A stretch of DNA of 34,219 nt, taken from Halococcus salsus (GTDB lineage Archaea > Halobacteriota > Halobacteria > Halobacteriales > Halococcaceae). Positions 17,199-34,219 of the stretch are shown in pieces. Each line of letters opens with the position of its first letter. Position 1 is the first letter of the stretch. The position numbers and the translations under genes were made by a program. The notes beneath the pieces were generated by a model. The model was not told the DNA's origin. It saw only the letters and a list, made by a program, of their open reading frames with translations, and ran no database searches. The stretch is from the NCBI RefSeq assembly GCF_009900715.1, contig NZ_JAAAJC010000013.1:5061-39279 (forward strand). The letters run 5' to 3'.

Positions 17199-17227
17199 AG
17201 AAAACTAACCTTACGAAGTCGCCATAC

Positions 17228-17572: not shown

Positions 17573-17689
17573 TAACAGTTCGTCGCCTCGGAGTAGCGCC
17601 CGCCCAGAGGCTTTTTCGTTGTAGATTTCGGTTTGGGTGCCCATCATCAGGATAGTACCGATTGGTCTGGGCTCACTGGTCTCGATTCG

Positions 17690-17877
17690 CTACCCGACGG
17701 TGATCCGAGTCGTAGCTGTCTGAAGGAATGCGGTCTCGTAGCCCTCGTGTCGGGCGGCTTGCGTGGGGTTTCGATAGAAAGTTCGAGGACATCGCCGGTC
17801 TGCACAGTATTGATCCCCGTCCCGTAGTGGTTGTTGAGCTCCGGATCGAGTGTCGGCGTGAGCGCGCCGCTCGCTAC
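17690..17877 (-). pseudogene. frameshifted C-terminal remnant, P19-like metal-binding family (tentative)
   Basis: Directly after the stop of the zinc-type ATPase, on the same strand, one frame reads LTPTLDPELNNHYG and then GDVLELSIETP. A second frame continues PTQAARHEGYETAFLQ, ending TRITVG. Joined, the two pieces read like the last third of an exported haloarchaeal protein that I associate with P19-type iron/copper-binding or iron-transporter proteins (conserved RHEGYETAFL). A one-base loss near 17765-17772 explains the frame change. No N-terminal part is present. The 117 bp beyond it (17573-17689) contain another short open stretch on the minus strand but nothing recognisable. Confidence 0.55.
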
Positions 17878-20223: not shown

Positions 20224-20240
20224 CGTGAGATAGGGGAGTC

Positions 20241-20271
20241 AACTCGATAAGCCTTAGTTGGAATTTTCCAA
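20241..20271 (-). promoter_or_regulatory. promoter with upstream palindrome for the zinc-type ATPase
   Basis: In the 61-bp gap between the regulator and the ATPase, TTGGAA-TT-TTCCAA (20258-20271) is a perfect dyad with 6-bp arms. Immediately downstream on the minus strand, CTTATCG (about 20245-20251) sits some 25-28 bp before the ATG at 20223, where a TATA box for a leaderless transcript is expected. A palindrome just upstream of BRE/TATA is the usual position for an activator site. The neighbouring HTH-10 protein is the obvious candidate. This reading is inferred from position only. Confidence 0.5.
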
Positions 20272-20284
20272 ACGGGAAGTCAGG

Positions 20285-21034
20285 TCAGGGTGATATCGAC
20301 GGCTCCGAAGGGAGATTTTCGTGAGCAACGTGCTCCTTCGCAAGGTGTTCTTCCGCCCGTCGAAGTCGGTAGGTGAGCGTCGACCGAGGCACGTTGAGGT
20401 GCTCTGCTAGTCCACCTACGTCGATCTCTCGGGGCGACTCGTAATAGCCGTGTTCGACGGCAGCCTGAAGAGCAGCCTCTTGTTCTGGCGAGAGCTGGGT
20501 TGTTCTGTCGTTCGTATTGTTTGTCGAGGTCGAGGTGGCGGCCGTTCGGAGTATTTCCGTTCGGGCACAGTCGCCGACGGCAGTTGCGAGCTCATCGAAG
20601 AACGCACTCACGTCGCCCTCGCCGGAATGGATGATGCGCCAGGTGTAGTGACGACTCTCGTGGCGCGTGTCGAACAGTAGACCATCGCCGAGGTGGTCGC
20701 GTGCGATGTGGGGGATGGACGAGCAAAGAGGGGTGCGCTCCCAGTACGAGTAGAGAACGAGCGTGTCATCAGTCTGGTCAAGGATCTGTGTAGTCTGGGT
20801 AGCATCACAGTCCTCGGTTGCGAGACAGTCTGCATAGTAGTCGCTGTTGAGAAAGGCGTCTTCGATATCAGCGAGAGCGTCGGGTGTCCCGGTGGCGTGA
20901 TCGACGCGCCAGAGACGGTTCTCGGTGGCGTGCAGCGAGAGCGATCGAATCCAAGCGTCTGGATGGTCAGCGAGAGTATCTGCCACCCTGTTGCACTTAG
21001 GTTCGTATTCGAGAGCGAAGACGAGCTCGCGCAT
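20285..21034 (-). CDS. HTH-10 (bacterio-opsin activator-type) metal-responsive regulator candidate
   Basis: A 249-residue protein with a C-terminal HTH-10 domain (about 181-234): LSPEQEAALQAAVEHGYYE, PREIDVGGLAEHLNVPRST, LTYRLRRAEEHLAK. This domain defines the Bat-like regulators of haloarchaea. The N-terminal ~160 residues form a sensor domain with five cysteines (C14, C70, C76, C104, C156), including DCLATEDCD, and several His. These are suitable for binding the soft metals pumped by the adjacent ATPase. The gene lies immediately upstream of that ATPase on the same strand, with a palindrome in the gap. Activation of the ATPase by metal is the natural hypothesis. Its own TATA-like element (GTATTATG on the minus strand, near 21062-21069) is about 30 bp before the ATG. 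Confidence 0.85.
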   Translation of the reverse strand: MRELVFALEYEPKCNRVADTLADHPDAWIRSLSLHATENRLWRVDHATGTPDALADIEDAFLNSDYYADCLATEDCDATQTTQILDQTDDTLVLYSYWERTPLCSSIPHIARDHLGDGLLFDTRHESRHYTWRIIHSGEGDVSAFFDELATAVGDCARTEILRTAATSTSTNNTNDRTTQLSPEQEAALQAAVEHGYYESPREIDVGGLAEHLNVPRSTLTYRLRRAEEHLAKEHVAHENLPSEPSISP

Positions 21035-21100
21035 ACACTACTATAGCTGGCTCGGAGGCATAATACATGGCTTTAGACCGCCCGGATTTGGTTACTGGGG

Positions 21101-21385
21101 TTAGATCACATCGTCGTGATCGTGAGTTTCCTGCATCCGCTGTGCTTCGGCAGCGTATTGCTCTTGAAGGTCGGTATCGTCGACGGAGCCGAGATTGCTC
21201 GGGTCAGCGTCGACAGCCGCCGTGGTGTCGCGAACATCGGTAAAGGAGGTTAGTGCTCGTTCTTTGCGGTAGTACTGCTCACCATCGGGAGTTGCGTAGG
21301 TGAGGATGATCAGGTTCTGCTCGTCGTCGGAGTAGGTTCGTTCGACCAACCACACACGGATACCATTATCCAGTTGCTCCGTCAT
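21101..21385 (-). CDS. small acidic haloarchaeal protein of unknown function (DUF7532-like)
   Basis: A 94-residue soluble protein beginning MTEQLDNGIRVWLVERTY. A compact beta-rich front half follows (NLIILTYATPDGEQYYRKERAL), then an acidic helical tail ending QRMQETHDHDDVI. It matches my memory of a widespread haloarchaeal family numbered DUF7532, which is not verified. The start is ATG 21385; the frame upstream to 21508 is basic and not conserved-looking. The His/Asp-rich end (THDHDD) could bind metal but is too short to argue from. It lies 66 bp ahead of the HTH-10 regulator on the same strand. Confidence 0.7.
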   Translation of the reverse strand: MTEQLDNGIRVWLVERTYSDDEQNLIILTYATPDGEQYYRKERALTSFTDVRDTTAAVDADPSNLGSVDDTDLQEQYAAEAQRMQETHDHDDVI

Positions 21386-21732
21386 ATTCGCCCGGTTGTT
21401 GCGCCTCGGGATTAAATGGTGGAGGTTGTAGATGGGTGTTTTCAGAGACACGGAACCCAAAGCCCATCCCGGCAGCACAAATTTCCGAAGAGATCTATGC
21501 ATGAACAATCTACCTAGCCGACTTCAGCTCAGGTATTGCCGGAGAACTCATCTGACCCGCTACGGGAGAATCCCCTGAACCAGAGATCGGGTGAACATAT
21601 TTGTTATTAAATGATGGTCTGTGGAATAGCCCTGATGATGTTGATTTCGAATCGAATCGTGTATGAGCAATCTACCTGCCTGGCTTCAGATCGAGATCGT
21701 CGTCTATCAACACTCAACGATTTATCGCCCAC
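21386..21732. other. intergenic stretch ahead of the arsenic genes, with two related 28-bp copies
   Basis: No gene is seen. Two related tracts begin at 21501 and 21663: both start ATGA(A/G)CAATCTACCT and share CTTCAG about 7 bases further on. A third, more diverged relative lies at about 27531 beside the recombinase fragment. The rest is A/T-rich promoter DNA. Confidence 0.5.
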
Positions 21733-21754
21733 CGCAATCTTCAAATAGATTGCG
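21733..21754 (+). promoter_or_regulatory. ArsR operator candidate overlapping the promoter of the first arsenic operon
   Basis: A perfect inverted repeat with 8-bp arms, CGCAATCT-N6-AGATTGCG. Its centre is 29 bp upstream of the ATG at 21773, where the TATA box of a leaderless haloarchaeal transcript should be (the spacer is TCAAAT). An ArsR dimer bound here would block TBP/TFB. The arsR gene of the same operon (21939) is the expected ligand-responsive repressor. Confidence 0.65.
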
Positions 21755-21772
21755 AAAATACGATTTGGTGCG

Positions 21773-21916
21773 ATGTCACAGAGTACTCTCGGTCGCATCT
21801 GGGATCGTCTCACAGCACGCTACGAACAGGACACAGAATCCGACTGTTGCGGGGCTACTGTTGAGGAAATCACACAGGATTCGCCCGAAACCGAATCGGA
21901 GAACTGCTGCGAATAG
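21773..21916 (+). CDS. 47-residue Cys-rich small protein leading the arsenic operon
   Basis: ATG 21773 to TAG 21914-21916 encodes a 47-residue acidic protein. It has a short amphipathic start (MSQSTLGRIWDRLTARYEQ) and two Cys-Cys pairs: ESDCCGATVEE in the middle and ENCCE at the very end. Paired vicinal cysteines are strong ligands for As(III). The gene is 22 bp ahead of arsR and directly behind a strong dyad, so it is the first gene of the arsR-arsP operon. I recall short CCG-containing proteins beside haloarchaeal ars genes but no characterised one. A metallochaperone or As(III)-sequestering role is inferred. Confidence 0.72.
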   Translation: MSQSTLGRIWDRLTARYEQDTESDCCGATVEEITQDSPETESENCCE

Positions 21917-21938
21917 ATACAAAACGCAAAGGTACGAT

Positions 21939-22322
21939 ATGTCCCAGACAGACTCACCACCTGACGAAGCCTACAGCGCGCTCGACCGATTATACGACGA
22001 CCCGGAGGCACGAATCGCCGCCCTGCGGGACTCTCGCCCTCCCGAACGAGATGTTGCCGGTCAAGAAGCCGTATTCAAGGCGCTCGCCAACGAAGACCGC
22101 CTCCGCGTTCTCGAAACACTCCGCGAGTCCGAGTGCTGTGGCTGTGAATTACAGATCGTGCTCGATGCACCGCAATCGACGGTCGCCACGCACCTCCGGA
22201 AGTTGAAGAAAGCGGGACTGGTCAAATCACGGAAGAAGGGCAAGTGGAGCTACTACCGCATCGCCGATACCGCGGTCTTCGAACTGCTTGATCTCGCCCG
22301 CGCTGTTCAGGGGGACGCCTGA
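21939..22322 (+). CDS. arsR: ArsR-family metalloregulator (1)
   Basis: A 127-residue ArsR/SmtB repressor. The winged helix spans about 41-115: [16 protein letters not shown], then [27 protein letters not shown] as the recognition part and [11 protein letters not shown] as the wing. The inducer site is ESECCGCEL (C66, C67, C69), the classic alpha3N cysteine cluster that binds As(III) and Sb(III). I start at ATG 21939 because [19 protein letters not shown] begins a normal N-terminus; the longer in-frame upstream reading covers the promoter and the 47-residue gene in another frame. The stop is one base before the arsP ATG, so the genes are translationally coupled. It presumably represses this operon via the dyad at 21733-21754. 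Confidence 0.92.
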
Positions 22323-22323
22323 G

Positions 22324-23283
22324 ATGCTTCCGGCAGGACTCGAAAGCGGCCTCATCGACTCGTGGAACTACTTCGTTCATCTCGTGGTCCTCCTCGTCCC
22401 GCTGTTCATCGGGGCGTCGTTCCTCGTGGGCCTCGCACAGGAGTATCTCCCACCGGAGAAGGTCGAGCGAAAGCTTCGCGGGCACGATGAGGGTGCGGGG
22501 AACGTCGCTGCCGCCGGACTGGGCGCGGTGACGCCATTCTGTTCGTGTTCGACTGTGCCTGTACTGGCTGGATTATTGCAGGCAGGCGCGCCGCTCGGGC
22601 TCGCGTTTTCGTTTCTGCTGGCCTCGCCGCTCGTCAACGAGATCGCCGTGTTGTTGCTCGTCGGCCTGTTCGGCATCGAGGTGACGGTCTGGTACATCGT
22701 CATGACGTTCGTCGCGGCAGTCGTCGGTGGACTCGTGATCGGGCGGCTGGGATTGGCCGAACAAGTCAAGGAAGTCAGCATTACTAACGAGACCGATCAA
22801 GCCGTCGCAACAGACGGCGGGACGGTCGATTGCTGTGCTGGAGGACCGACGCCAACCGAACAGACCCACAGACAGCACGTCGAGAGCGCCGCGCGTGATG
22901 CATGGTCGTTCTTCGTCGATACCCTTCCATATCTGATTCTCGGAATGGTGATCGGGGCGCTGATTCATGGCGTCGTTCCAGTCGACGTGCTCCAGACCGT
23001 CCTCGGACCTGAGAACCCGCTCGCCGTGCCACTGGCTGCGCTCGCCGGTGCGCCGGTCTACGTCAGCCTCAGCGGAATGTTGCCAATCGCTGCTTCCCTC
23101 AGCGAACAGGGGATCGCTATTGGGACCGTTCTCGCGTTCGTCGTTGGCGGAGCTGGTGTCAGCATCCCGAACGTGATTCTCCTGAACAAACTCTTCAAGC
23201 GCCGGCTGTTGGTCGTTTACGCTACCACCGTCGTCGCAATCGGTGTCATCGTTGGTGTTGTGTTCAATATCTTCATCGTCTAA
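22324..23283 (+). CDS. arsP: ArsP-type permease (trivalent organoarsenical efflux)
   Basis: A 319-residue polytopic permease of the ArsP_1/DUF318 family. Characterised members export methylarsenite and aromatic As(III) compounds. The family hallmark [14 protein letters not shown] (C73, C75) lies at the start of a membrane helix, and a pseudo-symmetrical second half begins around residue 195 ([16 protein letters not shown]). The cytosolic loop between the halves carries an extra pair DCCAGG (C170-C171) that may hand over substrate. The ATG is one base after the arsR stop. With the 47-residue Cys protein and ArsR it makes an operon for organic or methylated arsenic. Some relatives transport other metals or thiols, so substrate confidence is moderate. 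Confidence 0.88.
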
Positions 23284-23407
23284 GTTGCCCTGCTGGCCAG
23301 TCACCCATCTTCACTTCCAACAATACCGTGACCGTGGCAACACCGATTTCGCCGTCCCGATGGTCTCGATCACGAGCGCCCGGAACCGGCTTCGTATCCG
23401 TTCGGTG

Positions 23408-23827
23408 CTATTCGAGGGCGGCGACTGCGTCGACGGTGACTGCGGCACCACCGAGTAGTTCGCAGGCTCCGACGGTCGTGCGTGCCGGATACGTGTCCTC
23501 GAAATATCTCTCGTAGGTCTCGTTGACCGATTCGTAGGCGGCCATATCGGTGAGATACAGCGTTAACTGAAACACGTCATCCATCCCCTGTCCGCGCTGA
23601 TTCAGCTTGGCTTCGAGGTTCTGTAAGGCGAGTTCGAGCTGCTGTGCAGGTGGTTCGTCGCTTTCGACTTGTCCATTGTGCTCGGGAAGTTGCCCCTCGA
23701 TGAAACGGAGGTCCGAGTCGCCAGTCTTCATTCCGTAGCCACCGATGAACTCCGTCCCAGCGCGCTGCCTTCGGCTTGCTTCGCTCGCTCGATCCGGAAT
23801 CGATCTGTTGGCTTGCTCTGATTGCAC
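23408..23827 (-). CDS. RidA/YjgF/UK114 family protein
   Basis: A RidA-fold protein, usually an enamine/imine deaminase that clears reactive intermediates of amino acid metabolism. Recognisable parts are LRFIEGQLPEHNGQV, the long helix with LQNLEAKLNQRGQGMDDV, YLTDMAAYESVNETYERYF, and the active-site region PARTTVGACELLGGAAVTVDAVAALE (read in two pieces) with the conserved Arg and final Glu. The start is uncertain. GTG 23827 gives 139 residues with a TTTTACTT element about 29 bp upstream. ATG 23731 would delete the GTEFIGGYG segment that aligns with family members. The first ~25 residues are unusual, so the N-terminus may be replaced. It lies between the two arsenic operons on the opposite strand. 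Confidence 0.75.
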   Translation of the reverse strand: MQSEQANRSIPDRASEASRRQRAGTEFIGGYGMKTGDSDLRFIEGQLPEHNGQVESDEPPAQQLELALQNLEAKLNQRGQGMDDVFQLTLYLTDMAAYESVNETYERYFEDTYPARTTVGACELLGGAAVTVDAVAALE

Positions 23828-23941
23828 GCTTCGGTTTAATATTCTCTCAAGTAAAACCCTTTCGTCCGCACTCGTACGAACGACCCATGGGCAGAGATAG
23901 TACACGAATAGGGTATCACCCGCGTCGTCATCGAAACGATT

Positions 23942-23961
23942 AATTGAGTCTGTATTCAATT
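23942..23961 (+). promoter_or_regulatory. ArsR operator candidate in front of arsR2-acr3
   Basis: An inverted repeat AATTGA-N8-TCAATT ends 8 bp before the ATG at 23970. It spans the interval between the expected TATA box (TTAATT, about 23940-23945) and the transcription start. This placement suits repression by the ArsR encoded just downstream. The arms are shorter and the sequence differs from the dyad at 21733, so the two ArsR proteins probably recognise different sites. Confidence 0.55.
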
Positions 23962-23969
23962 CACTCTCC

Positions 23970-24368
23970 ATGGCGCAAGCGACCGAACGACTCCAGCGAT
24001 ACCTCGAAGACGAGCTCGGGGAGTGTCGAGACGAGGACGTCAAGCGTCGACTCGACGAACTCGGCACGCTCGAAGCGGCACTCGGCCCAGCACAGGTCAA
24101 CGCCGAACTCGACGTGCTCGCCGCGCTCGCCAACGAGACGCGCTACACGCTCGTTCGCGTGCTCGTAGCAGCCGGGGAGGAACTCTGTGTCTGTGAGCTT
24201 CAGGCCGTCGTCGACGTGAGTGAGAGCGGGCTGAGTCACGCGCTCTCGGCGCTCGTCGACGCGGGACTCGTGACCGGGCGCAAGGACGGACGTTGGAAGA
24301 AGTACCAAGCTACCAACCGTGCCATCACCCTTGTGACTGTCCTCGACGGGAGCGTGAGTAATGAGTAA
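23970..24368 (+). CDS. arsR: ArsR-family metalloregulator (2)
   Basis: A 132-residue ArsR-type repressor. Residues 1-45 form an acidic helical lead (LQRYLEDELGECRDEDVKRRL), followed by the winged helix: LAALANETRYTLVRVLVAAG, CELQAVVDVSESGLSHALSALVDAGLV, RKDGRWKKYQ. The As(III) site is ELCVCEL (C73, C75), the standard C-V-C motif. A further Cys19 lies in the N-terminal helix and could complete a three-thiol site. The last eight bases overlap the start of acr3 (GTGAGTAATGAGTAA), so repressor and pump are co-translated. It presumably controls its own operon through the dyad at 23942-23961. Confidence 0.92.
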   Translation: MAQATERLQRYLEDELGECRDEDVKRRLDELGTLEAALGPAQVNAELDVLAALANETRYTLVRVLVAAGEELCVCELQAVVDVSESGLSHALSALVDAGLVTGRKDGRWKKYQATNRAITLVTVLDGSVSNE

Positions 24369-25521
24369 CGTCGACCACGAGCACGGCCCGGACTGCTCGT
24401 GTCCGCAGTGTGGTGACCCACGGTCGATGGACTTCCTCGACAAGTACCTCACCGTCTGGATCTTCGGCGCGATGGCCGTCGGCGTGGGATTGGGCTATAT
24501 CGCCCCATCGGTGACCCAACCGATTCAGAACCTCCATCTCGTGGAGATCGGCCTCATACTGATGATGTACCCGCCGCTGGCGAAGGCGGACTACTCGCAG
24601 CTCCGGACGGTATTCAGCAACTGGCGCGTACTCGGGCTGAGCCTCATCCAGAACTGGCTCATCGGCCCAACGCTGATGTTCGGGCTGGCGGTCGTGTTCT
24701 TCAGCGGCCTCGTTCCGGGCCTGCCCGCGCGCCCCGAGTTCTTCCTCGGACTTATCTTCATTGGGATGGCCCGGTGTATCGCAATGGTGCTTGTCTGGAA
24801 CGAACTCGCCGAAGGGTCTCCCGAATACGTCACTGGGTTAGTGGCGTTCAACAGCCTCTTCCAGATCGTCACCTACGGCGTCTACGTCTGGTTCTTCGGG
24901 TTGTTCCTGCCGCCGCTGCTGGGAATGGACTCGCTCGTTGCCGGGATTACCACCTTCGACATTACACCGATGCAGGTATTCCAAGCCATCGTGGTCTTTC
25001 TCGGTATTCCCTTTGTCGGCGGCTTTTTGACCCGCTACGCCGGCACGCGCACCAAGGGCGAAGAGTGGTATGACGAGGATTTCATCCCGAAGATCGACCC
25101 GCTGACGCTGGTCGCATTGCTGTTCACGGTAATCGTGATGTTCGCCACGCAGGGCGAGAACATCGTTGCTGCACCCGCAGATGTTCTGTTGATCGCGGTG
25201 CCGCTGACGATCTACTTCGTGGTGATGTTCTTCGTGAGCTTCGGCATGGGGAAAGGAATCGGCGCGGACTACTCGACGACGACCGCGATCGGGTTCACGG
25301 CGGCCTCGAACAATTTCGAGCTCGCCATCGCGGTCGCGGTCGCCGTGTTCGGTGTTGGCTCCGGCGTCGCCTTCACGACCGTCGTCGGCCCGCTCATCGA
25401 GGTGCCCGTCTTGCTCGCGCTGGTCAACGTTGCACTCTATTTCCAGCGCAAACTCGACTGGAGTGGAACCGAGACTGGCAGTCTCGACACATCACCGTCC
25501 GAGGCGACGACTGACGACTAA
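24361..25521 (+). CDS. acr3: ACR3-type arsenite efflux carrier
   Basis: A 386-residue member of the ACR3 family (BART superfamily, ten helices), which extrudes arsenite as a uniporter or H+ antiporter. The family's essential Cys is in TM4, GMARCIAMV (C139), and the conserved Glu is in TM9, AASNNFELAIAVA (E320). Unusually, the cytosolic N-terminus carries DCSCPQCGD (C12, C14, C17) plus two His, a small metal-binding tail ahead of TM1 that could receive As(III) or zinc. It overlaps arsR2 by eight bases and is followed 21 bp later by arsC, forming arsR-acr3-arsC. Confidence 0.94.
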   Translation: MSNVDHEHGPDCSCPQCGDPRSMDFLDKYLTVWIFGAMAVGVGLGYIAPSVTQPIQNLHLVEIGLILMMYPPLAKADYSQLRTVFSNWRVLGLSLIQNWLIGPTLMFGLAVVFFSGLVPGLPARPEFFLGLIFIGMARCIAMVLVWNELAEGSPEYVTGLVAFNSLFQIVTYGVYVWFFGLFLPPLLGMDSLVAGITTFDITPMQVFQAIVVFLGIPFVGGFLTRYAGTRTKGEEWYDEDFIPKIDPLTLVALLFTVIVMFATQGENIVAAPADVLLIAVPLTIYFVVMFFVSFGMGKGIGADYSTTTAIGFTAASNNFELAIAVAVAVFGVGSGVAFTTVVGPLIEVPVLLALVNVALYFQRKLDWSGTETGSLDTSPSEATTDD

Positions 25522-25542
25522 CCACCACACGAACCAAAACCA

Positions 25543-26010
25543 ATGTCCACCACTACTGATACAGCGAACCTGATTCGACTCGCGTTCATGTGCGTCCAAA
25601 ATGCTGGACGCTCGCAGATGGCGACCGCATTCGCCGAGCGCGAACGCGAGCGCCGAGGCCTCGACGACGCCGTCGAGATCCTTACCGGAGGTACCCGTCC
25701 AGCGGACCACGTTCACGAGGAAGTCATCGAAGTCATGCGCGAGGAAGAGTTCGATCTCTCGGAGCGGATGCCCCGCGAAATCACAAGCGAGGAACTCCGT
25801 TCGTGTGAGTACGTGGCGACGATGGGTTGTTCGACGCTTGACGTCGACGAGGATGAGTCAACGGTTGACATCCGCGACTGGGATCTTCCCGATCCTCATG
25901 GAGAGGATATCGACACGGTACGTTCGATTCGAGACGACATTCACCAGCGTGTGGTGGATCTGTTCGATGAACTCAGCGACGACTCACAACTGAGCGCCCC
26001 CACGAACTGA
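25543..26010 (+). CDS. arsC: arsenate reductase, LMW protein-tyrosine-phosphatase fold
   Basis: A 155-residue protein reducing As(V) to As(III), the form exported by ACR3. The P-loop is CVQNAGRSQ (C17, R23) and the general acid is the Asp in WDLPDP (D117). Two further cysteines, C88 and C96, are 71 and 79 residues after the first. This is close to the three-cysteine relay of thioredoxin-coupled ArsC (spacing 72 and 79 in the S. aureus enzyme). The enzyme is therefore likely a true reductase recycled by thioredoxin, not a phosphatase. The N-terminal 12 residues are polar and dispensable-looking. It is the last gene of the arsR-acr3-arsC operon. Confidence 0.92.
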   Translation: MSTTTDTANLIRLAFMCVQNAGRSQMATAFAERERERRGLDDAVEILTGGTRPADHVHEEVIEVMREEEFDLSERMPREITSEELRSCEYVATMGCSTLDVDEDESTVDIRDWDLPDPHGEDIDTVRSIRDDIHQRVVDLFDELSDDSQLSAPTN

Positions 26011-26039
26011 GAGGGTTGACGACCCGGAAGAAACGAGTG

Positions 26040-26246
26040 CTACTCGGGCGACCACTCGCAGGCGTCGCCATAGGTCAGTTCGTTCTCGGTGATATACGCC
26101 GACAGGCACGCGTAGTTGCAGAAGTAGAGAGGTGAGCCACAATCGACGGTGCAGTCGCGTACACAGATGGGGTCGTGGTTGAAGATACGCGAACCACAGT
26201 ATGCACACGCCTCGTCTGTATCGGGAATCTCGACTGTCGTAGCCAT
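26040..26246 (-). CDS. 68-residue zinc-ribbon-like Cys-rich protein (DUF7576-like)
   Basis: A small protein with eight cysteines: CAYC (14, 17), C28, C32, C36, C43, C47 and C63. It also has the aromatic stretch YFCNYACLSAYI, which resembles MYM/TRASH-type zinc fingers. Such modules bind Zn or sense heavy metals. The number DUF7576 is from memory. The start is ATG 26246 (MATTVEIPDTDEAC). It is convergent with arsC (29 bp apart) and divergent from the BASS-type carrier. Its position inside the arsenic region suggests a metal-linked role. Confidence 0.78.
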   Translation of the reverse strand: MATTVEIPDTDEACAYCGSRIFNHDPICVRDCTVDCGSPLYFCNYACLSAYITENELTYGDACEWSPE

Positions 26247-26428
26247 GTTCTGTGGTTCTTCACGACCAAGCGAAAGCATTCCGACCGTCTACTGATAGAG
26301 CTTCCAGTGATACGCTCCCCCTATGCGTACCGTTCGTCGAAGTTTGTGAACTGCTCTGTGACACCCCAACCATGGGAGGCTGCTGAAATCAGTCTTCGTA
26401 AGGTGCTCCGGCGTCACAAGATTCTACA

Positions 26429-27433
26429 ATGGTACAGTTTACGAAAGACTGGATTCAGCACAATCAAATACTCATCTACGCAACTGGCGTCCTTCTCGCA
26501 GTTATCGTGAGCTTTGCTCAGCCGGGGCTAAGTTCTCCTCTGGAACAGTTCATCAACCCCGTCTTGGCAGTGCTTCTGTACGTGACGTTCCTTGAAATCC
26601 CGTTCGTCAAACTTCGCCGGGCGTTCACGAACGGCCGATTCATGCTGGCTGCGCTCGGGATGAACTTCCTCGTGGTTCCGGTCGTCGTCTTCGCTCTCAC
26701 CCGATTTCTCCCGCAGGACCCGGCCGTTCTTGTCGGGGTATTCATGGTATTGCTCACGCCGTGTATCGACTACGTAATTTCGTTCACGGAGCTTGCGAAC
26801 GGCGATGCAGAACAGATCACTGCGGCGACGCCAGTGTTGTTGCTCATTCAGTTGCTGCTCCTTCCGGGGTATCTCTGGGTGTTCATGGGAGAGCGAGTTA
26901 CAGAGTTCATTCAGGCAGGACCCTTCATTGAGGCGTTCGTTCTCATCATCGCAGTTCCGCTGACGCTCGCATGGCTTACCGAAGTGGGTGCAGAACGTTC
27001 TGAGGCTGGAAAGCGATGGAAAGACGCGATGGAGTGGTTACCAGCCCCGATGATGAGTGTGACGCTGTTTGTGGTTATCGCGTCCCAACTCCCACGTGTT
27101 CAAAACTCAATCGGACAGATCACTGCTGTCATCCCGGTATATGTCGCGTTCCTCGTTATAATGCCACTACTCGGACGGTTCGGGGGCGGACTCTTTGGAA
27201 TGGATGTGGGCGAGAGCCGTGCTCTCGTGTTTACGTCGGTGACGCGGAACTCATTGGTCATTCTGCCGCTGGCACTCGCGCTACCGTCGGGATACGCACT
27301 CGCTCCGGCGGTCGTCATCACACAGACACTCGTCGAATTGATTGGAATGGTCGTCCTTACCCGAGTCGTACCAACGTGGCTTGTTCCCGAGACCGGTCGG
27401 GGAATTAGCCCGGAGACGACCCCAGACGACTGA
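26429..27433 (+). CDS. BASS/ACR3-related membrane carrier (arsenic resistance protein-like)
   Basis: A 334-residue protein with about nine to ten helices in the BART-superfamily arrangement: LLAVIVSFAQPGL, INPVLAVLLYVTFLEIPF, VLLTPCIDYVISFTELANG, then a second set ending FTSVTRNSLVILPLALALP. The last motif, an N/S-rich break in TM9, corresponds to the ACR3 E-x-A region but lacks its Glu. The Cys of TM4 (LLTPCIDYV) is retained. Haloarchaeal relatives are annotated arsenic resistance protein or bile acid:Na+ symporter family. It could be a second As(III)/Sb(III) exporter with altered specificity. Upstream 26247-26428 contains the promoter and no other gene. Confidence 0.8.
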   Translation: MVQFTKDWIQHNQILIYATGVLLAVIVSFAQPGLSSPLEQFINPVLAVLLYVTFLEIPFVKLRRAFTNGRFMLAALGMNFLVVPVVVFALTRFLPQDPAVLVGVFMVLLTPCIDYVISFTELANGDAEQITAATPVLLLIQLLLLPGYLWVFMGERVTEFIQAGPFIEAFVLIIAVPLTLAWLTEVGAERSEAGKRWKDAMEWLPAPMMSVTLFVVIASQLPRVQNSIGQITAVIPVYVAFLVIMPLLGRFGGGLFGMDVGESRALVFTSVTRNSLVILPLALALPSGYALAPAVVITQTLVELIGMVVLTRVVPTWLVPETGRGISPETTPDD

Positions 27434-27550
27434 AATACACATATCCAAGGGTAGCTAGGCCGGCTCATCACATATAGAAGGTTGAGTATTTCAGACTGAT
27501 AGTTGATTTCGTCATTCGCTGTGCATTAGAAATCCATTTGCCTGACTTCA

Positions 27551-27946
27551 GATGAGGTCGGGCTGCACATTCTTGATATGGGCATCGACCTCTCGCCCGA
27601 CGAACGCGACCCCTACACCCGCGCGTTCCTCACTGTCGCAGCGACCTTCGCCGAGCTCGAAGCTGAGATCAAACGCGACAACACCCGCGAAGGAATCGCA
27701 GCGAGTCGTGCCCAGGGCAAATGGCATGGCCGCCCACCATTCGGATACGACGTCGGTCCAGAGGGTTTCTTAGTACCTAATGACGACTATGAGACTGCTA
27801 TCGTTATCCTCGATGAACTCGATAAAGGTGCGAGCAAACGTGAGCTTGCCCGTCGGACCAGTGTCGCCCGCTCGACAATCCAGCACATTGCCAACAACCA
27901 CGAGCGGTATGTTGGTGAGTCGTCACAATTCGTTGGCTCCGTATAG
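27551..27946 (+). pseudogene. serine recombinase (resolvase/invertase), 5' truncated
   Basis: The frame encodes the catalytic-domain end and the DNA-binding part of a serine resolvase: VGLHILDMGIDLSPDERDPYT, FAELEAEIKRDNTREGI (the long helix E), RAQGKWHGRPPFGYDV, then a helix-turn-helix KRELARRTSVARSTIQHI. The N-terminal third, including the catalytic Ser and the Arg residues, is absent. Recognisable similarity starts near 27551. ATG 27578 exists but cannot give an active enzyme. The break coincides with a sequence related to the 28-bp tracts at 21501 and 21663, so it may mark the right edge of the arsenic segment. Confidence 0.82.
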
Positions 27947-27984
27947 CGATATACAATGCACGCCTACTACACGATCGAAGGGTG

Positions 27985-28611
27985 ATGGATGTGGAGTGGC
28001 CGCCAGCACCACCCGAGGGCTATCGACCACACGACCCCGACTACCAGCAACCGTGGTACGTCACGGTAGCGCTGCTCGGCTGGATTCTCGGGGTGTTTAT
28101 CGGTCCGCCACTGTTGGTAGTGGCCCTGAAAGGAGAGGAGACAGCGGTTCGCCTCGCCTATACTGTCTTTCAGCATGAAACTCCCAATGAGTGGGCCAAA
28201 TATCTCGTCTGGGTGCTCGGAATGCTTGGTCTCTTAGCTCTCCTTCATGAAGCGCTCCATGCTCTCTGTGGGCGCTGGTTCGGCTACCGCTCGAAATTCA
28301 GCATCAGATACGACGGTTTCCTTAATATCTCTCCAACGACGCTCACGTACGGTGAGTATCAATCGCGCGGTGAATCAATAGCTATCGCGCTCGCACCGCT
28401 GGTTGTTCTGACGCCGGCAAGTATCCTTGTACTGGTCGTGAGTCAGGATTTCTGGGTATTGGGGTCAGCAGCGCTTATCTGTCTCGGGAATTCAGTGGGG
28501 GCGGTTGCCGACCTCGGTTCAGCCTGCCGAATTGTACAGCTTCCAGCAGGCGAGCTCATCACTCAGGATAAGAAAGGCAGGCAGCAATATTATCACCGTG
28601 TGAATGAGTAG
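27985..28611 (+). CDS. DUF3267-like putative zincin membrane protein
   Basis: A 208-residue protein with a proline-rich, aromatic N-terminus, a helix at about 26-48, a second at about 74-94 that contains HEALH (88-92), and two more C-terminal helices. HExxH within a membrane helix followed by an aromatic/Gly stretch is the signature of the DUF3267 putative zincin peptidases, distant relatives of site-2 proteases. A conserved Asp/Asn third ligand may lie in GNSVGAVADLGSA. I chose ATG 27985; GTG 27982 is one codon earlier. It directly follows the recombinase remnant. The substrate is unknown. Confidence 0.75.
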   Translation: MDVEWPPAPPEGYRPHDPDYQQPWYVTVALLGWILGVFIGPPLLVVALKGEETAVRLAYTVFQHETPNEWAKYLVWVLGMLGLLALLHEALHALCGRWFGYRSKFSIRYDGFLNISPTTLTYGEYQSRGESIAIALAPLVVLTPASILVLVVSQDFWVLGSAALICLGNSVGAVADLGSACRIVQLPAGELITQDKKGRQQYYHRVNE

Positions 28612-28891
28612 TCCCCATCGAGAATGCAGAGTAGGGTCATCCCGGAGGTCGGAGTTTGGCCGATCCAGAGGGATAGGGTTCTTCAGCAGCCGCAGTGGCG
28701 ACGGCGTTACACGCTGAAGCTAGCAGGTCAGAACCGAACGGAGTGAGCTCGCGCGATGGCGCGGTGAGTACGGTGGTGCGGTTCCGCACTTCCCGAACCG
28801 AGTGCTGGAGCTGTTGCGGAATATCTGTAGATGCTGAAAGCCGGAAGAGATAACACTCGTGCTTAGGGAGTTGCCGAGAGAGGTTGATCGC

Positions 28892-29254
28892 ATGAGTGTC
28901 GAATCCGAGCAGCCGTCGTCACCTGCCGGGCCACCGCTCGGTATCAAGGTCGTCTGCTGGTCCAGAATCCTACTCATGTTCGCCGAGTTCGTTTTAGCGC
29001 TCGTGCTGTTCGCGAACTTTGAAGGTCTATATGGCGTGCTATTGCTGGTAGCGATAGTAGGCGAGATCGTGATAGCGTACGGACTCTGGACGCTCACCCT
29101 ATGGGGCTGGATACTGGCAGTCATCTGGTACTCGGTTGGCGGATTCCAGTCTGCGTCATCGTTGCTGTCGGGGAGCCTGAGTGGTCTCATCGGGATTATC
29201 CTGAGTTTCGTTACTGTTGGCCTGGTGCTCACGAACTATCGGTCGTTTCGATAA
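28892..29254 (+). CDS. small hypothetical membrane protein (4 TM)
   Basis: A 120-residue protein with a Pro/Ser-rich start (MSVESEQPSSPAGPP) and four closely packed helices (about 15-36, 40-62, 66-86 and 90-112). The pattern resembles DUF2127-like haloarchaeal membrane proteins but I do not recognise it firmly. ATG 28892 is preferred over GTG/ATG codons 33 bases earlier because the extra residues (LRELPREVDR) are unlike an N-terminus. The flanks 28612-28891 and 29255-29517 hold no gene. The latter may include the outer end of the ISH8-type element near 29490. Confidence 0.6.
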   Translation: MSVESEQPSSPAGPPLGIKVVCWSRILLMFAEFVLALVLFANFEGLYGVLLLVAIVGEIVIAYGLWTLTLWGWILAVIWYSVGGFQSASSLLSGSLSGLIGIILSFVTVGLVLTNYRSFR

Positions 29255-29517: not shown

Positions 29518-30434
29518 TTAGCACTCACACCTCGGTTGTGTAGCGGTAGCGAGCGTCTCTTGGAGGATCGATCGTTCTTGGTGAATTTTCTGTGCATCTT
29601 CGATCAGTCGTTCTAACAGCGGCGGTGGCGAATAGCCGAGGTGTTCGCCGAGTTCGTGGAGGATGAGCTGGGCGTGCGACCGGAAGGTCGCCGCCCAGCA
29701 CTCGGGCGGGAACACGATCTCATTGTCAGCCTCCTCGGTGATCAGATCCAGCAGATCACGGCTTACCAGCAGTGACAGCAACGCTGCGTACAGCAGAATC
29801 TCAACAACCGCCGGGTTGCTTGTGCTGAACTCGTCAAGTTCGTACTGCGTCTTCAGCTCCCGGAACAGCAACTCCACTTCCCACCGACACCGGTACAGCG
29901 TTGCAAGATCAGCCGGCAGGAACTCCTCTCTGGGCAGATTCGTGATGTACAGATAGTAGTCGTCGGCGTCCTCGTTGCGGACACCGACGACGCGGAACCG
30001 CTTCGTATCCAGCGACCGAGTTCCATCGTACGGCCCTCGCTTGAATTCCGCTTCAACCTTGACGTCGATGTACTCACGATGGAGATCGTCCACGACGTCG
30101 TGGATCTGCTTGCTTCCAGGGGGATGGCGCGGCCGCGCCATCCCCGTAATTCCGCCGTTATCACCGGTTTTGCGCTCTTCTTCAACCGACTCACGAAGTA
30201 GCCGTCGTTCTCATCGATCAACGCGAAGCAGCGGTACTTGAAGTACGCGAGATCGAGGAGAACGAGCCGTCCCTGCAGCCACGAGCCTGTGTTGAACAGC
30301 GTGCTGTCGTGCGTTTTTTCGTCGCTAACGTCGAGCCGTTCGATCGTCTGGTCGGTGGCATTGTGGAGCAGGTGGAGCGTCGCTCCAGCCCGCTCCTCTT
30401 TCCGGGCCTGATACTCTTCGGAGAGAAATTCGTG
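29518..30434 (-). pseudogene. ISH8-type (IS4 family) transposase, 5' truncated and frameshifted
   Basis: Two frames together encode the last three quarters of an IS4-family transposase of the haloarchaeal ISH8 group. The first reads HEFLSEEYQARKEERAGA, LHLLHNATDQTIERLDVSD, LVLLDLAYFKYRCFALIDEN. Near 30112-30116 a one-base loss moves the reading to the second frame, with KQIHDVVDDLHREYIDV and RVVGVRNEDADDYYLYITN. The YREK signature YRCRWEVELLFRELK is intact. The end is LQETLATATQPRCEC, very like known members. The N-terminal ~100 residues with the first catalytic Asp are missing. Similarity stops at 30434, inside a 46-bp repeat found again at 33885-33930. It is an inactive remnant. Confidence 0.88.
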
Positions 30435-30470
30435 CGGCCCTGTAGATAGACACTGGACTACCGACAGGGG
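30425..30470 (-). repeat. 46-bp inverted repeat, left copy
   Basis: This tract is the reverse complement of 33885-33930 with three mismatches over 46 bp. It contains an internal hairpin: CCCTGTCGGTAG pairs with CTATCTACAGGG across an 8-base loop, with mismatches. Ten of its outer bases (CACGAATTTC on the minus strand) also form the broken start of the ISH8-type gene, so the junction was probably made at short shared sequence. Confidence 0.85.
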
Positions 30471-30514
30471 AACCTCATATTAGCCGACAGTCCTCAGCTA
30501 GAGCGAGTGATAGA

Positions 30515-30994
30515 ATGGTGGAGATACGAAAAGCAACCTCTGCAGATTCGGAGGACATGGACCGAATACAACGTGATTCACTCCAGTCACAGGCAGTGGA
30601 CGAATACTCTTCAGAACAGTTAGAGTATATGACGGCAGTCGATGACGACCGTTTGCTGATTCCTCCAGAGAAAATAGAAGCAGATAGCCATGTATACATC
30701 ATTGCTGAGCAGGATGGACTACCTGTGGGATATGGAGGTATAGATATTGATGAAGGATTATTGGCAGCGACATTCGTTGACCCCTCCGTTCTTCAACAAG
30801 GGGTTGGACAAGCGATAGCTGAGAGGCTGCAACAAATCGCTCAAGACCACGATATTGGAGTACTAAGAACATACGCATCACTCAACGTAACCGGATTTTA
30901 TGAGCAGATAGGATTTCAAAAGCGAGAGTGTGTCACTGTTGGCGGAGGGGCTGGACCAGAGATTCCGAGCGTAGTGATGGAAAAGCGGGTTTGA
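30515..30994 (+). CDS. GNAT family N-acetyltransferase
   Basis: A 159-residue acetyl-CoA-dependent N-acetyltransferase. Recognisable are the start MVEIRKATSADSEDMDRIQ, the central strands VYIIAEQDGLPVGYGGIDI and LAATFVDPSVLQQGVGQAI with the pyrophosphate-binding Q-x-G-V-G-x-A loop, and the C-terminal YASLNVTGFYEQIGFQKRE, the typical A-x-x-F-Y-x-x-x-G-F motif. The acceptor cannot be told. It is the first gene inside the segment bounded by the 46-bp inverted repeats. It is AT-richer than the flanking transposase remnant, and its promoter lies in 30471-30514. Confidence 0.88.
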   Translation: MVEIRKATSADSEDMDRIQRDSLQSQAVDEYSSEQLEYMTAVDDDRLLIPPEKIEADSHVYIIAEQDGLPVGYGGIDIDEGLLAATFVDPSVLQQGVGQAIAERLQQIAQDHDIGVLRTYASLNVTGFYEQIGFQKRECVTVGGGAGPEIPSVVMEKRV

Positions 30995-31071
30995 GCTACA
31001 CTCGTGTGATATACAAAGGCGTTTCAAGCACAACTGCACGGGGTTGCATGCGGCGACACTGCTAATCCTCA

Positions 31072-31106
31072 TTTTGCACATCAGACGCCGTTATCGATGT
31101 GCAAAA
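31072..31106. repeat. inverted repeat TTTTGCACAT / ATGTGCAAAA
   Basis: Perfect 10-bp arms at 31072-31081 and 31097-31106 flank a 15-bp spacer. The left arm with its outer flank (AATCCTCATTTTGCACAT, from 31064) is exactly the reverse complement of 32908-32925, on the other side of the FAD monooxygenase and DUF7692-like genes. Confidence 0.8.
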
Positions 31107-31256
31107 CCGACAGTTGGTCTCTCTATGGCTCGAGTGAACACACCTTAGCGTTCGGGACACATCTGCCAGAAGTACGACGATCTGGCGTTCTATAACCCGA
31201 GCAGATAGACTCGAACTGCCGATGTGCAATACGGAGACTTATCCTTATCCTGCCAG

Positions 31257-31284
31257 CCCTCCGGCCCCGCAGGGGCCGTGAGGG
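31257..31284 (-). terminator. GC-rich hairpin downstream of the FAD monooxygenase
   Basis: CCCTC-CGGCCCC, loop GCA, GGGGCCG-T-GAGGG: a 12-bp stem with one bulged base, some 40 bp past the stop of the minus-strand monooxygenase gene. No T-run follows on either strand, so the terminator role is uncertain. It could equally be a repeat-element hairpin. Confidence 0.35.
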
Positions 31285-31325
31285 TGGTCGCTGACTATTG
31301 TGTATGCGAATCTCTACTGAATGAC

Positions 31326-32468
31326 TCAGAAATCGGCTGTGACCATCGATTCTGTTTGTTTCTGCAATAGTAAGGAAGGCACGTGTCTGAATGCGGCGTT
31401 CCGAATCTTCGCCAACATCGGATACTCCACCTGCGCCAGCCGGCCCTGAATCCGTGACTGGCGCAGTATGGCTTCTGCTCGGTCTTTGCGACGAGTTTCG
31501 TAGGCAGAAAAGGCACGATGGGTGGCTCCGTGGGTAGCTATTGATTCGGCGAGGACGACGGAATCTTCCATCGCCTGTGCGCTTCCCTGTGCGAGATTCG
31601 GGGTCATGGCATGAGCAGCATCACCGAGAAGAGTAGCACGACCGTTGGTCCAGTGGTTGAGTGGCGGTACGTCCGTGAGCGGAGTTTGGATGATAGTTTC
31701 ATCATCGGTAGCAGCGATGAGGTCGGGGACAGGATCAGTGAAATCGCGGTACTGTTTGGCGAGTTCAGCGGAGGTTGCCTCCGGTGCAGCGTCTGGAGAT
31801 TCTGCCACAACTGTGGCAAACCAGTACACCTGTTCGCCATCGACAGGAAAGTACCCAAGGCGTACTCCATGGCCCCAAAATTCTGCGCCTACCTGCTCAA
31901 TATCATTCGAAGTCGTTGTATCGGCGAGGCCCCGATAGGCGACTTCACCAGCGTATCGTGGTCGGTTATTTGGGGAGATATTCCTCCGAACGGTGGAGTT
32001 GACGCCATCAGCACCCACAACGAGGTCTGGTGTCTTCTCGGTTCCATCAGCGAACTGAATCGCGGGCTGCTTCGCGTCGATACCCACACACTCCATACCG
32101 AGTTGTAATCTATCGGTGGAGAGGTGGTTTCTGAGTACGGATTGAAGGTCAGCCCGATGGACAGCCACCATGATATGATTGAGATCGAGTTGATTTACAG
32201 GGGTGCGAAAATCCATCGGCATGAGCAGCTGTCCTTCTTTGGTTCGCAATTCGATTCGATCCACAGCAACGCCACGCTCTACAACGGGATCGGCGACATC
32301 GAGGTGATCAAGCGCTTGCATTCCATTGGGGGCGATTCCGATCCCGAATCCTACGGGCCGAAGTTCATCTGTAGCTTCGTACACTACCGGGTCGAATCCG
32401 CGAGTTTGAAGGCCAATAGCTGTACACAACCCGCCGATACCGCCCCCAATAATTGCAATGTCGGGCAT
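31326..32468 (-). CDS. FAD-dependent monooxygenase (salicylate/PHBH-type)
   Basis: A 380-residue flavoprotein hydroxylase. The N-terminal Rossmann fold has IIGGGIGGLCTAIGL and the acidic end of beta-2 (VYEA, Glu31). The middle DG motif is VVGADGVNSTVRR (about 150-162). The second FAD motif is LLGDAAHAMTPNLAQGSAQAMEDS (about 280-302, read in two parts), which contacts the ribityl chain. This is group A flavin monooxygenase architecture: NAD(P)H and O2 hydroxylate an aromatic or related ring. The substrate cannot be told and no ring-cleavage or transport genes are nearby. It may be a cargo gene of the repeat-bounded segment. Confidence 0.88.
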   Translation of the reverse strand: MPDIAIIGGGIGGLCTAIGLQTRGFDPVVYEATDELRPVGFGIGIAPNGMQALDHLDVADPVVERGVAVDRIELRTKEGQLLMPMDFRTPVNQLDLNHIMVAVHRADLQSVLRNHLSTDRLQLGMECVGIDAKQPAIQFADGTEKTPDLVVGADGVNSTVRRNISPNNRPRYAGEVAYRGLADTTTSNDIEQVGAEFWGHGVRLGYFPVDGEQVYWFATVVAESPDAAPEATSAELAKQYRDFTDPVPDLIAATDDETIIQTPLTDVPPLNHWTNGRATLLGDAAHAMTPNLAQGSAQAMEDSVVLAESIATHGATHRAFSAYETRRKDRAEAILRQSRIQGRLAQVEYPMLAKIRNAAFRHVPSLLLQKQTESMVTADF

Positions 32469-32504
32469 CTATGTGAATGAGTATATGCTCTGGGTATTTG
32501 ATGC

Positions 32505-32750
32505 TCAGTCGATTGTGAGGTCGGTGACGAGGCGATGCTCGACGGTGACGTTCGTGGTCGAGAGGAGTTCGGCGAGGTCTTCGGTCATATCGGGATGTTC
32601 GGCGGCGTGTTCGAGGTTGCGAAGCATCTGGTTCGAGAACTGGCAGGCAGCATCAATTCCGCCGCTTTTGGTGCCAACGCCGAAGCGTTCGGCAGTGCGC
32701 TCGTAGAGGTCGGTTCGGTAGTCTTTCTCGCCGTTCGTATTGATTCTCAT
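32505..32750 (-). CDS. DUF7692-like small haloarchaeal protein
   Basis: An 81-residue protein starting MRINTNGEKDYRTDLYERTAERF. It is predicted all-helical, with ERFGVGTKSGGIDAACQFSNQM resembling a ribbon-helix-helix or helix-turn-helix pairing, and the acidic tail ends TVEHRLVTDLTID. I recall this as DUF7692, common on haloarchaeal plasmids and islands. The start is ATG 32750; the frame upstream to 32945 lies over the repeat-rich promoter and is not protein-like. A TTTTGCACAT motif lies 7 bp upstream of the ATG, which suggests autoregulation. It follows the DNA of the monooxygenase promoter with a 36-bp gap. Confidence 0.68.
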   Translation of the reverse strand: MRINTNGEKDYRTDLYERTAERFGVGTKSGGIDAACQFSNQMLRNLEHAAEHPDMTEDLAELLSTTNVTVEHRLVTDLTID

Positions 32751-32756
32751 AGGTGA

Positions 32757-32945
32757 TTTTGCACATGGGGGTCGATTTGGCGTGCTATTCGGCTTACTCA
32801 CGGATGGTTTGCCTATAAAGAACGGCGATTTCGTCGTGATGGATGGCGCTCGTGGAGCGTCTCGGCCCGGACGCGGCGCGAAACTTGCACATGGTTTTGG
32901 CCGAGCCATGTGCAAAATGAGGATTGCTGTTTTCGGTCTGTGCAA
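32757..32945. repeat. cluster of TTTTGCACAT-type motifs
   Basis: There are four copies in 190 bp. TTTTGCACAT is at 32757-32766. TTGCACATGG (32885-32894) and CCATGTGCAA (32906-32915) form a perfect 10-bp inverted repeat with an 11-base loop. CTGTGCAA is at 32938-32945. The DNA between them (32767-32884) has no supportable gene. It separates the divergently oriented upstream ends of the DUF7692-like gene and the end of the phosphoesterase gene. Confidence 0.75.
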
Positions 32946-32975
32946 CCGGGTGGTTAGGTACGAGATATTGATTTG

Positions 32976-33713
32976 CTATGGGGCGGGCCAGCCCTGCGCC
33001 CACCAATCCGCATGTGGCATATCGCTTTTCCCGGCAGCCTCACGAACCATTTCGACATCAACGTGCGTTTGACACAACTCCACGTCCAGAGACCCATTTT
33101 CGTCGGTCAGAAGTGCATATTCTGTCCTAGATGGATCGACCATCGTATTCGTTGCTTGATCCAGGTCGCGGGCGAGTCCGATGCTGCCTGCGTTGAGTAT
33201 GATGGCGTTCCTGTGGCGGCGGAACAGTTGAACATGCGTGTGTCCACCGACCAGTACTTGCGCATCCGTTTCGGTGAACCATTCATCAAGTTCATCTTGA
33301 GGAGTTTCCGCGCCAATTGCTTCAGAATGCGAGCGGGGGGTTCCATGATAACACAACAGCTGTCGCTCATCGCTTAGTTGAATCTCAACCGTTGGCTCGA
33401 AGCTACAAATGCTCTCTATTTGATCGTCTGATAATTGCTCTGCTGCCCATCGAAGAAGATCCTTGATTCGTTGGGGGTTTTGGTCTCTGTTATCGATTTG
33501 TTCTGGATTGAGAAGAACCTCATCTGTGTTACCCATAACCACCGGAATATCTAATTCCCTAACTATCTCAAGCGATTCGGAAGGCTGTGGACCGTTTGCA
33601 ACGACATCGCCGAGACAAACGATCTGATCTGGGTTCTCGTCCTCGATTGCAGAGAGCGCTGCTTGGAGCGCCACGGCGTTGCCATGCATATCAGCAATGA
33701 TTGCGACTCTCAT
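32976..33713 (-). CDS. calcineurin-like metallophosphoesterase (YfcE/MJ0936-type)
   Basis: A 245-residue dinuclear metal phosphoesterase. The metal-ligand motifs are all present: D8-x-H10 in IIADMHGN, D36 and N40 in CLGDVVANGP, GNTD (61-64), His123 in CYHGTPRS and GHTH (157-160). This set matches the YfcE/MJ0936 group of cyclic-nucleotide or phosphodiester hydrolases, not the large nucleases. The C-terminal ~40 residues are an extension with tryptophans (HADWWAQGWPAP). The physiological substrate is unknown. It ends just upstream of the TTTTGCACAT cluster, and its promoter is in the A/T-rich stretch 33714-33790. Confidence 0.9.
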   Translation of the reverse strand: MRVAIIADMHGNAVALQAALSAIEDENPDQIVCLGDVVANGPQPSESLEIVRELDIPVVMGNTDEVLLNPEQIDNRDQNPQRIKDLLRWAAEQLSDDQIESICSFEPTVEIQLSDERQLLCYHGTPRSHSEAIGAETPQDELDEWFTETDAQVLVGGHTHVQLFRRHRNAIILNAGSIGLARDLDQATNTMVDPSRTEYALLTDENGSLDVELCQTHVDVEMVREAAGKSDMPHADWWAQGWPAP

Positions 33714-33884
33714 AGATTTTTGCGTCCGTTCGAGATCTCGGTGTCCTCAGCCGGGGACTGATTAATAACCATATTCGTTTTTTAGATCTATTGTGTTTCA
33801 TGTCAATATTCGCCATCCACACTGGAAGTGAAAATATCAGTGTTGCACCGGAATCTCCCTGTCCACGATTTCTCTCATCTCAAG

Positions 33885-33930
33885 CCCCTGTCGGTAGTCA
33901 AGTGTCTACCTACAGGGTCGCACGAATTTC
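33885..33930 (+). repeat. 46-bp inverted repeat, right copy
   Basis: This is the partner of 30425-30470 in opposite orientation (43 of 46 bases agree). The hairpin is better preserved here: CCCTGTCGGTAG and CTACCTACAGGG flank the loop TCAAGTGT with one mismatched pair. The sequence continues past the shared part into GATATCTACAGAAAT, unlike the left copy where the ISH8-type gene begins. This copy is therefore probably the more complete one. Confidence 0.85.
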
Positions 33931-33950
33931 GATATCTACAGAAATCGCGG

Positions 33951-34219
33951 TCACTCCGCTCTATCCGCGAACGCACTCCCGGGCGAGAATTCGGTCAGGT
34001 CGTCGATTTCGGCTTCGAGCCGCTCGATCTCTTGGCGGAGGACCTCCGCCTCGGGATCGTCGCTCACGGCTAGGCGGTCTTTGAGCCCCTGAAGACGGGT
34101 CTCTTTGCGCTCCTCGTCGACTTCGGCTTTCCTGACGTACTCGCTCTCGGAGACGTCATAGACGGCAGACTCGGGGACCGAAACCACGTCGAGTGCTTCG
34201 TCGACCTTCTCGCGGTCGA
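33951..34219 (-). CDS. hypothetical coiled-coil protein, N-terminus outside window
   Basis: A very acidic frame ending FSPGSAFADRAE that stays open to the right edge. The sequence before the first possible GTG start (34187) also reads as protein (DREKVDEALDV), so the true start lies beyond 34219. Residues around EEERKETRLQGLKDRL and EAEVLRQEIERLEAEIDDL form a heptad-like coiled coil. GC content is high, typical of core haloarchaeal DNA, so the window may be leaving the island here. The family is not recognised. Confidence 0.7.
   Translation of the reverse strand, partial: DREKVDEALDVVSVPESAVYDVSESEYVRKAEVDEERKETRLQGLKDRLAVSDDPEAEVLRQEIERLEAEIDDLTEFSPGSAFADRAE

Follow-up and report, generated by a model that had tools for sequence, protein, structure and literature searches.

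Inverted palindromic sites around a 3.5-kb segment of Halococcus salsus DNA as candidate crossover sites for a haloarchaeal serine recombinase

Two facing copies of a 46-bp repeat enclose a 3.5-kb gene-bearing segment in Halococcus salsus, which raises the question of what these repeats are and whether the DNA between them is, or was, a mobile unit. The segment lies in contig NZ_JAAAJC010000013.1, within a stretch of 34,219 nucleotides that was analysed as a whole (the window). The initial annotation had suggested either an unknown mobile element carrying cargo or a non-autonomous transposable unit. The former comes close to our results, while the latter is unsupported, as the sites are mostly single and the units bounded by them, where they can be compared, end in mid-palindrome. 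We consider it likely from sequence comparisons that the two repeats are sites of crossover by a serine recombinase, and that the segment is a site-bounded module of patchwork origin, either invertible or exchangeable.

The repeats and their boundaries

A repeat search of the window yielded facing copies at 30425-30470 and 33885-33930 (46 nt, 93% complementary). Direct comparison gave 43 of 46 identical bases, with identity falling to 6/20 outside and 6/30 inside the copies; the length, inversion and identity of the repeats were thus as initially described. The window shares 26 15-mers with its own reverse complement, compared to 0-8 in shuffles. The hairpins proposed at the same time are real but modest, with dG of -8.8 (z -4.0) for the right copy and -5.8 (z -1.3) for the left one. 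Since the window has no Rfam match, and pair counting in the palindrome family showed no covariation beyond shuffles, we treat the palindrome as a DNA site. The missing covariation fails to support an RNA hairpin and is neutral for a DNA site, where it is expected. The elements at the two ends are as follows.

29518-30435, minus strand: relic of an ISH8-type (IS4 family) transposase gene, lacking the 5' part, with a broken frame near 30141
30425-30435, no strand assigned: 11-bp junction, ISH8 coding sequence matching the repeat tail (GCACGAATTTC on the minus strand)
30436-30470, minus strand: left palindromic site, 34-bp core 30437-30470, centre 30453/30454, arms CTGTCGGTAGTCC and CTGTAGATAGACA, central AG on the minus strand
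33885-33918, plus strand: right palindromic site, centre 33901/33902, central AG on the plus strand and hence inverted relative to the left site
33919-33948, plus strand: tail of the right site, GCACGAATTTC-n3-ATCTACAG-AAATC, with an extra half-site CTGTAGAT on the minus strand

Scored with a position-weight matrix and with the family model R2 described below, the left site reaches 44.4 and 45.3 bits and the right one 49.8 and 51.1 bits, respectively, both copies being part of the training set.

The left copy was initially placed exactly at the cut of the ISH8-type gene. It does sit where the ISH8 homology stops, the limit being 30435 and not 30425: intact relatives have GAAACTCGTGC followed by AACCGC, whereas the window has GAAATTCGTGC followed by GGCCCTG. 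The ISH8 relatives carry GAAACTCGTGC or GGAACTCGTGC and then the remainder of the gene. As the ISH8 alignments reach 30435, the left copy owes 11 of its 46 bases to ISH8 sequence that coincides with the tail of the repeat. Read from these alignments, 30425-30435 (GAAATTCGTGC) is ISH8 coding sequence, and the left repeat proper spans 30436-30470. The joint probably arose through microhomology, linking a tailed site to a piece of ISH8. At the other end, homology to further family members extends the right copy past 33930 to approximately 33948. Copies in contig 18 of genome G000 and in genome G007 share the tail GCACGAATTTC-n3-ATCTACAGAAATC, with differences, and several other copies have a weaker form of it.

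A dispersed palindrome family

The palindrome has a 34-bp consensus, ACCCTGTCAGTAACCA-AG-TGTCTACTGACAGGGT. In a sample with one genome per species, a model built from the first four copies (R1) found it in 9 of 392 haloarchaeal genomes, and a second model built from 17 cores (R2) in 21 of the 392 (order-wide search, E <= 0.001, strict filters); a targeted search at a lax threshold retrieved it in 16 of 21 genomes. The family is concentrated in Halococcus, with palindromes in 8 of 10 genomes of the genus in the order-wide R2 search; the complete genome G004 had none at that threshold. In control haloarchaeal DNA (154 kb), the position-weight matrix gave no hits above 15 bits, compared to 44 and 50 bits for the window copies. 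Among the 82 sites scoring at least 20, the central dinucleotide is AG in 57 and TG in 12.

The palindromes are dispersed and mostly intergenic, and occur as single copies and close pairs. Isolated single copies had been named in the initial annotation as grounds for rejecting a transposable unit, and this is what most copies are. Within 350 bp, 25 of the 82 sites have a small open reading frame (ORF) that is predicted to encode two transmembrane segments, compared to 202 of 3600 control positions, sites that share a cassette not being independent. Because the arms vary, searches for exact patterns in GTDB contigs and IMG/VR yielded almost no matches, and a distant BLAST search of the right site against plasmids and phages returned nothing relevant. 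We found no description of such sites in the literature, subscription literature being outside the coverage.

Sites upstream of serine recombinase genes

Comparison of site positions with PF00239 domains placed sites 66-71 bp upstream of serine recombinase genes in G002 and G003; the G003 gene is a relic broken by stops. Relatives of the G002 recombinase are present in 66 of the 392 genomes. In most of the relatives that are at least 44% identical, the start codon is preceded at a distance of 71-87 bp by a palindrome centred on 2 bp. This palindrome is directly followed by a direct half-site, then by a TATA-like box and often by another half-site. Inverted half-sites around a putative 2-bp core thus adjoin the recombinase gene, although in a minority of the relatives the palindrome is weak or absent. 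As many of these palindromes score only slightly above shuffles, the argument rests on their position and shared motif. The initial annotation had also looked to a related autonomous element; its counterpart here would be a serine recombinase gene preceded by a palindrome of this kind, and not a DDE transposase.

The recombinase matches PF00239 with E 1.2e-26, and R9, S11, Q15, R78 and R81 are invariant in 24 of 24 aligned recombinases. Its predicted structure (predicted local distance difference test, pLDDT, 83; predicted template-modelling score, pTM, 0.53) shows a catalytic domain at the N-terminus, then a long helix and, at the C-terminus, further helices. The best solved structural matches are serine integrases and Sin, with low whole-chain TM-scores. 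Going by this model, the protein combines a resolvase-type catalytic domain, the Ser and Arg residues and C-terminal DNA-binding helices. IS607 was ruled out by domain order, the catalytic domain being N-terminal here, whereas IS607 has an N-terminal DNA-binding and a C-terminal catalytic domain.

The half-sites vary with the recombinase subgroup (CTGTCAGTA, CTGTAAGCG, CTGTACACG, CTGCAATGA). At variable positions, they match at 3.7 of 5 within a locus and at 2.5 of 5 between loci (permutation 5e-5; 19 loci with both half-sites readable, relatedness being ignored in the statistics). The window sites each match the site upstream of the G003 relic at 27 of 31 positions, compared to 14-22 of 31 for the other recombinase-linked sites; the G003-type half-sites are CTGTCGGTAGTCA and CTGTAGATAGACA. 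The CTGTAAGCG-type palindrome was found in one copy only, at the recombinase gene, in each of three genomes, and therefore dispersal is not general to the recombinase subfamily.

Another serine recombinase subfamily of Halococcus (AAYVRVSTDDQNE; loci L131-L135, L140-L142, L147 and L148) has its own palindrome-like GAAAAC repeats upstream, and so the layout with a site before the gene may be general.

Cassettes with breakpoints at the palindrome centre

G002 (contig 8), G009 (contig 190) and G054 (contig 20) share a cassette of ∼490 bp, 98.6-99.3% identical between them, whose product is a 69-aa membrane protein; its flanks are unrelated. G054 belongs to a different family (f14), and the three genomes thus come from two families; a related cassette (84%) is present in G030, from the same family as G054. 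In the cassette comparisons, the switch in identity falls in the middle of the palindrome at either end: the inner arms match at 14-16 of 16 positions and the outer arms at 9-14 of 16, with background levels beyond. The pairs L092/L099 (G005), L237/L243 and L242/L256 show the same switch at one end, and the natural breakpoints fall at the palindrome centre to within a few bases. Such a pattern is consistent with reciprocal exchange in a short core and is unlike the terminal repeats of a transposon. Units of ∼150 bp in G002 and G009, whose sites are inverted as in the window, are similar to the recombinase unit at its left end and look like internal-deletion derivatives. IS200/IS605-type hairpin ends were ruled out, as the units end at the palindrome centre.

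In contig 3 of G030, two identical stretches 18.8 kb apart (L253 and L254, at 163.5 and 182.3 kb) have both the same three sites and the same cassette for a small membrane protein.

Proposed mechanism and alternative explanations

In the mechanism that we propose, the enzyme would belong to a haloarchaeal serine recombinase family with the motif (Y)IRASTDxQ. Each site would comprise two ∼16-bp half-sites inverted around a 2-bp centre, one of the sites having an accessory half-site. The recombinase would cut two sites at the centre and rejoin the halves, and hence pairs of sites would bound movable DNA modules: inverted sites would lead to inversion and direct sites to excision or joining, or else modules would be swapped between replicons. 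For the window, this implies that a recombinase would act on both sites, and that the segment would be, or would have been, such a module, to be inverted or exchanged rather than excised. An ISH8 fragment would later have damaged the left end or become joined to it via the 11-bp shared sequence.

Several observations speak against this interpretation. The 3.5-kb segment was not found as a repeated unit in 99 relatives; it occurs once, and its cargo genes were seen only separately. The search of haloarchaeal genomes suggested by the initial annotation did reveal other cassettes bounded by family sites, but, with one genome per species, no empty site for this segment. The tail is present on both outer arms, unlike in a simple split target. 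No intact recombinase of the subfamily was found in the assembly of the window (95% complete), the nearest specificity being that of the G003 relic; the mechanism thus requires an enzyme that acts in trans or has been lost. The specificity of the half-sites appears as a statistical, not a biochemical property. Finally, several breakpoint pairs share one cassette and hence are not independent, and in L244/L248 the inner and outer arms could not be told apart (13 of 16 each).

Some of this would also be seen if two real recombination sites belonged to different neighbouring modules, and the 3.5 kb had never been one moving unit, being a patchwork of several events. The cargo genes lie apart in relatives, the tails face outward at both sites, ISH8 is damaged at the left, and a second inverted repeat lies inside the segment. 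Still, the two sites (43 of 46) are far more alike than most family pairs, suggesting a recent common origin. We regard this explanation as quite possible, if somewhat short of an even chance. It bears on whether the segment, bounded as it is by sites, may have moved as one unit.

The inverted arrangement, the 43 of 46 identity and the cargo lacking a transposase would also fit a non-autonomous transposon, whose 46-bp terminal inverted repeats would be recognised by a transposase acting in trans, so that the 3.5 kb would transpose as a whole. This is improbable, as the copies are mostly single, the modules stop at the palindrome centre, no target duplication is visible at the edges, and the left repeat includes 11 ISH8-derived bp; moreover, no transposase with such ends was found, whereas the palindrome stands upstream of serine recombinases. 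Of the features of a terminal-inverted-repeat transposon or a miniature inverted-repeat transposable element, target duplication and several copies were lacking in the window segment, which is single-copy, and related units have their breakpoints at the palindrome centre, not outside the repeats. The overlap of the sites with recombinase promoters, a TATA-like box lying beside the half-sites, and the modest hairpin z-scores would fit protein-binding or regulatory sites, such as terminators or operators of the recombinase itself, dispersed as repeats and having no role in recombination. We find this unlikely, since it leaves unexplained both the centre switch between unrelated flanks and the sites that bound cassettes far from recombinase genes. 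Lastly, an Xer-like tyrosine recombinase, of the kind acting on dif modules, could use the sites: the arm and spacer lengths fit an 11-6-11 or 13-8-13 geometry as well, and tyrosine recombinases were found in 10 of 11 genomes searched. However, none is linked to a site, G006 has sites and no PF00589 match (its assembly is only 72% complete), and the sites adjoin serine recombinases with locus-specific motifs, so that we give this explanation little credence.

Cargo genes and neighbourhood

All four cargo genes named in the initial annotation (GNAT, flavin monooxygenase, DUF7692-like and phosphoesterase) are supported by Pfam, and, as it stated, no transposase lies between the two copies. These genes and the ORF at the right edge are listed below.

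30515-30994, plus strand: GNAT acetyltransferase, 159 aa (Pfam GNAT)
31326-32468, minus strand: FAD-dependent monooxygenase, 380 aa (Pfam FAD_binding_3)
32505-32750, minus strand: DUF7692 protein, 81 aa (Pfam DUF7692)
32976-33713, minus strand: calcineurin-like (YfcE-type) phosphoesterase, 245 aa (Pfam Metallophos_2)
33951-34219, minus strand: 3' end of an ORF with no Pfam match, stop codon just past the right tail, running off the window

Homologues of the monooxygenase are present in G001, G009 and G002. In G002 (contig 26), a site lies ∼100 bp away, while no site was found near those of G001 and G009. The phosphoesterase has a homologue in G017, and the DUF7692 region has matches in other relatives. 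The monooxygenase and DUF7692 genes are enclosed by the second inverted repeat (31064-31104 and 32885-32925, AATCCTCATTTTGCACAT...); CATTTTGCACAT was also found in loci of G007 and G009. This repeat may represent another repeat family, linked to DUF7692.

To the left of the segment, 27578-27946 holds a serine recombinase gene that lacks its 5' end and belongs to another subfamily (ALYCRVST type); it has 80% DNA identity to a gene in G002 contig 86. The region 28691-28840 resembles G000 contig 28 beside its site tail and ends in ATCTGTAGAT with no palindrome; it is probably the remnant of a module end next to a small membrane-protein ORF (28859-29254). As read from the ORFs, 13218-28000 carries metal and arsenic genes, including P-type ATPases, ArsR-like regulators, a permease, Acr3-type transporters and an ArsC-like protein.

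Comparison with known systems and implications

In the dif modules (pdif) of Acinetobacter plasmids, cargo between recombination sites is shuffled between replicons, and inversions and deletions occur between sites with like spacers (PMC13141974). The site-flanked cargo and the geometry are similar here, although dif modules depend on the tyrosine recombinases XerC/XerD and 28-bp sites, as opposed to a serine recombinase and 34-bp palindromes with a 2-bp centre. In Tn3-family transposons, mosaics arise by exchange at the dinucleotide of res subsite I (PMC7157771). The Tn3 system and the present one both feature a serine recombinase, with the gene beside its own site and extra half-sites, but the sites described here are scattered and bound small cassettes, and no Tn3 transposase was seen. 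Archaeal integrons have been reported, haloarchaea not being mentioned in that report (PMC9668308); small gene cassettes, terminal recombination sites and changing locations are loosely shared with them, whereas no IntI was linked to our sites, and exchange appears to fall at the palindrome centre and not in an attC arm. Similar to the DNA invertases of the Hin/Gin family, a serine recombinase could flip a segment between inverted sites with a 2-bp core; unlike in those systems, there are many dispersed sites and neither a recombinase gene nor an enhancer beside the segment. By analogy, the closest working likeness would be to Acinetobacter dif modules and to recombination at Tn3 res subsite I, while we do not place the system among dif modules, Tn3 transposons or integrons, for which Xer dependence, Tn3 ends and IntI/attC, respectively, would be expected.

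On a broader scale, there is about an even chance that a serine recombinase drives a gene-cassette system in haloarchaea, in which dispersed palindromes with a 2-bp core would bound small modules exchanged across genera and families at the palindrome centre, the window segment being one larger module. With modules that are often a single small membrane-protein gene, such a system would be the functional equivalent in archaea of integrons and dif modules.

As far as we know, the usual explanations for gene exchange among haloarchaea are homologous recombination, viruses or insertion sequence elements, and little biology has been assigned to archaeal serine recombinases other than IS607. A recombinase family with a recognisable cognate site constitutes a directly testable system and allows module boundaries to be predicted with a precision of a few bases. 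Moreover, recombinases with many differing specificities could provide genetic tools for halophiles.

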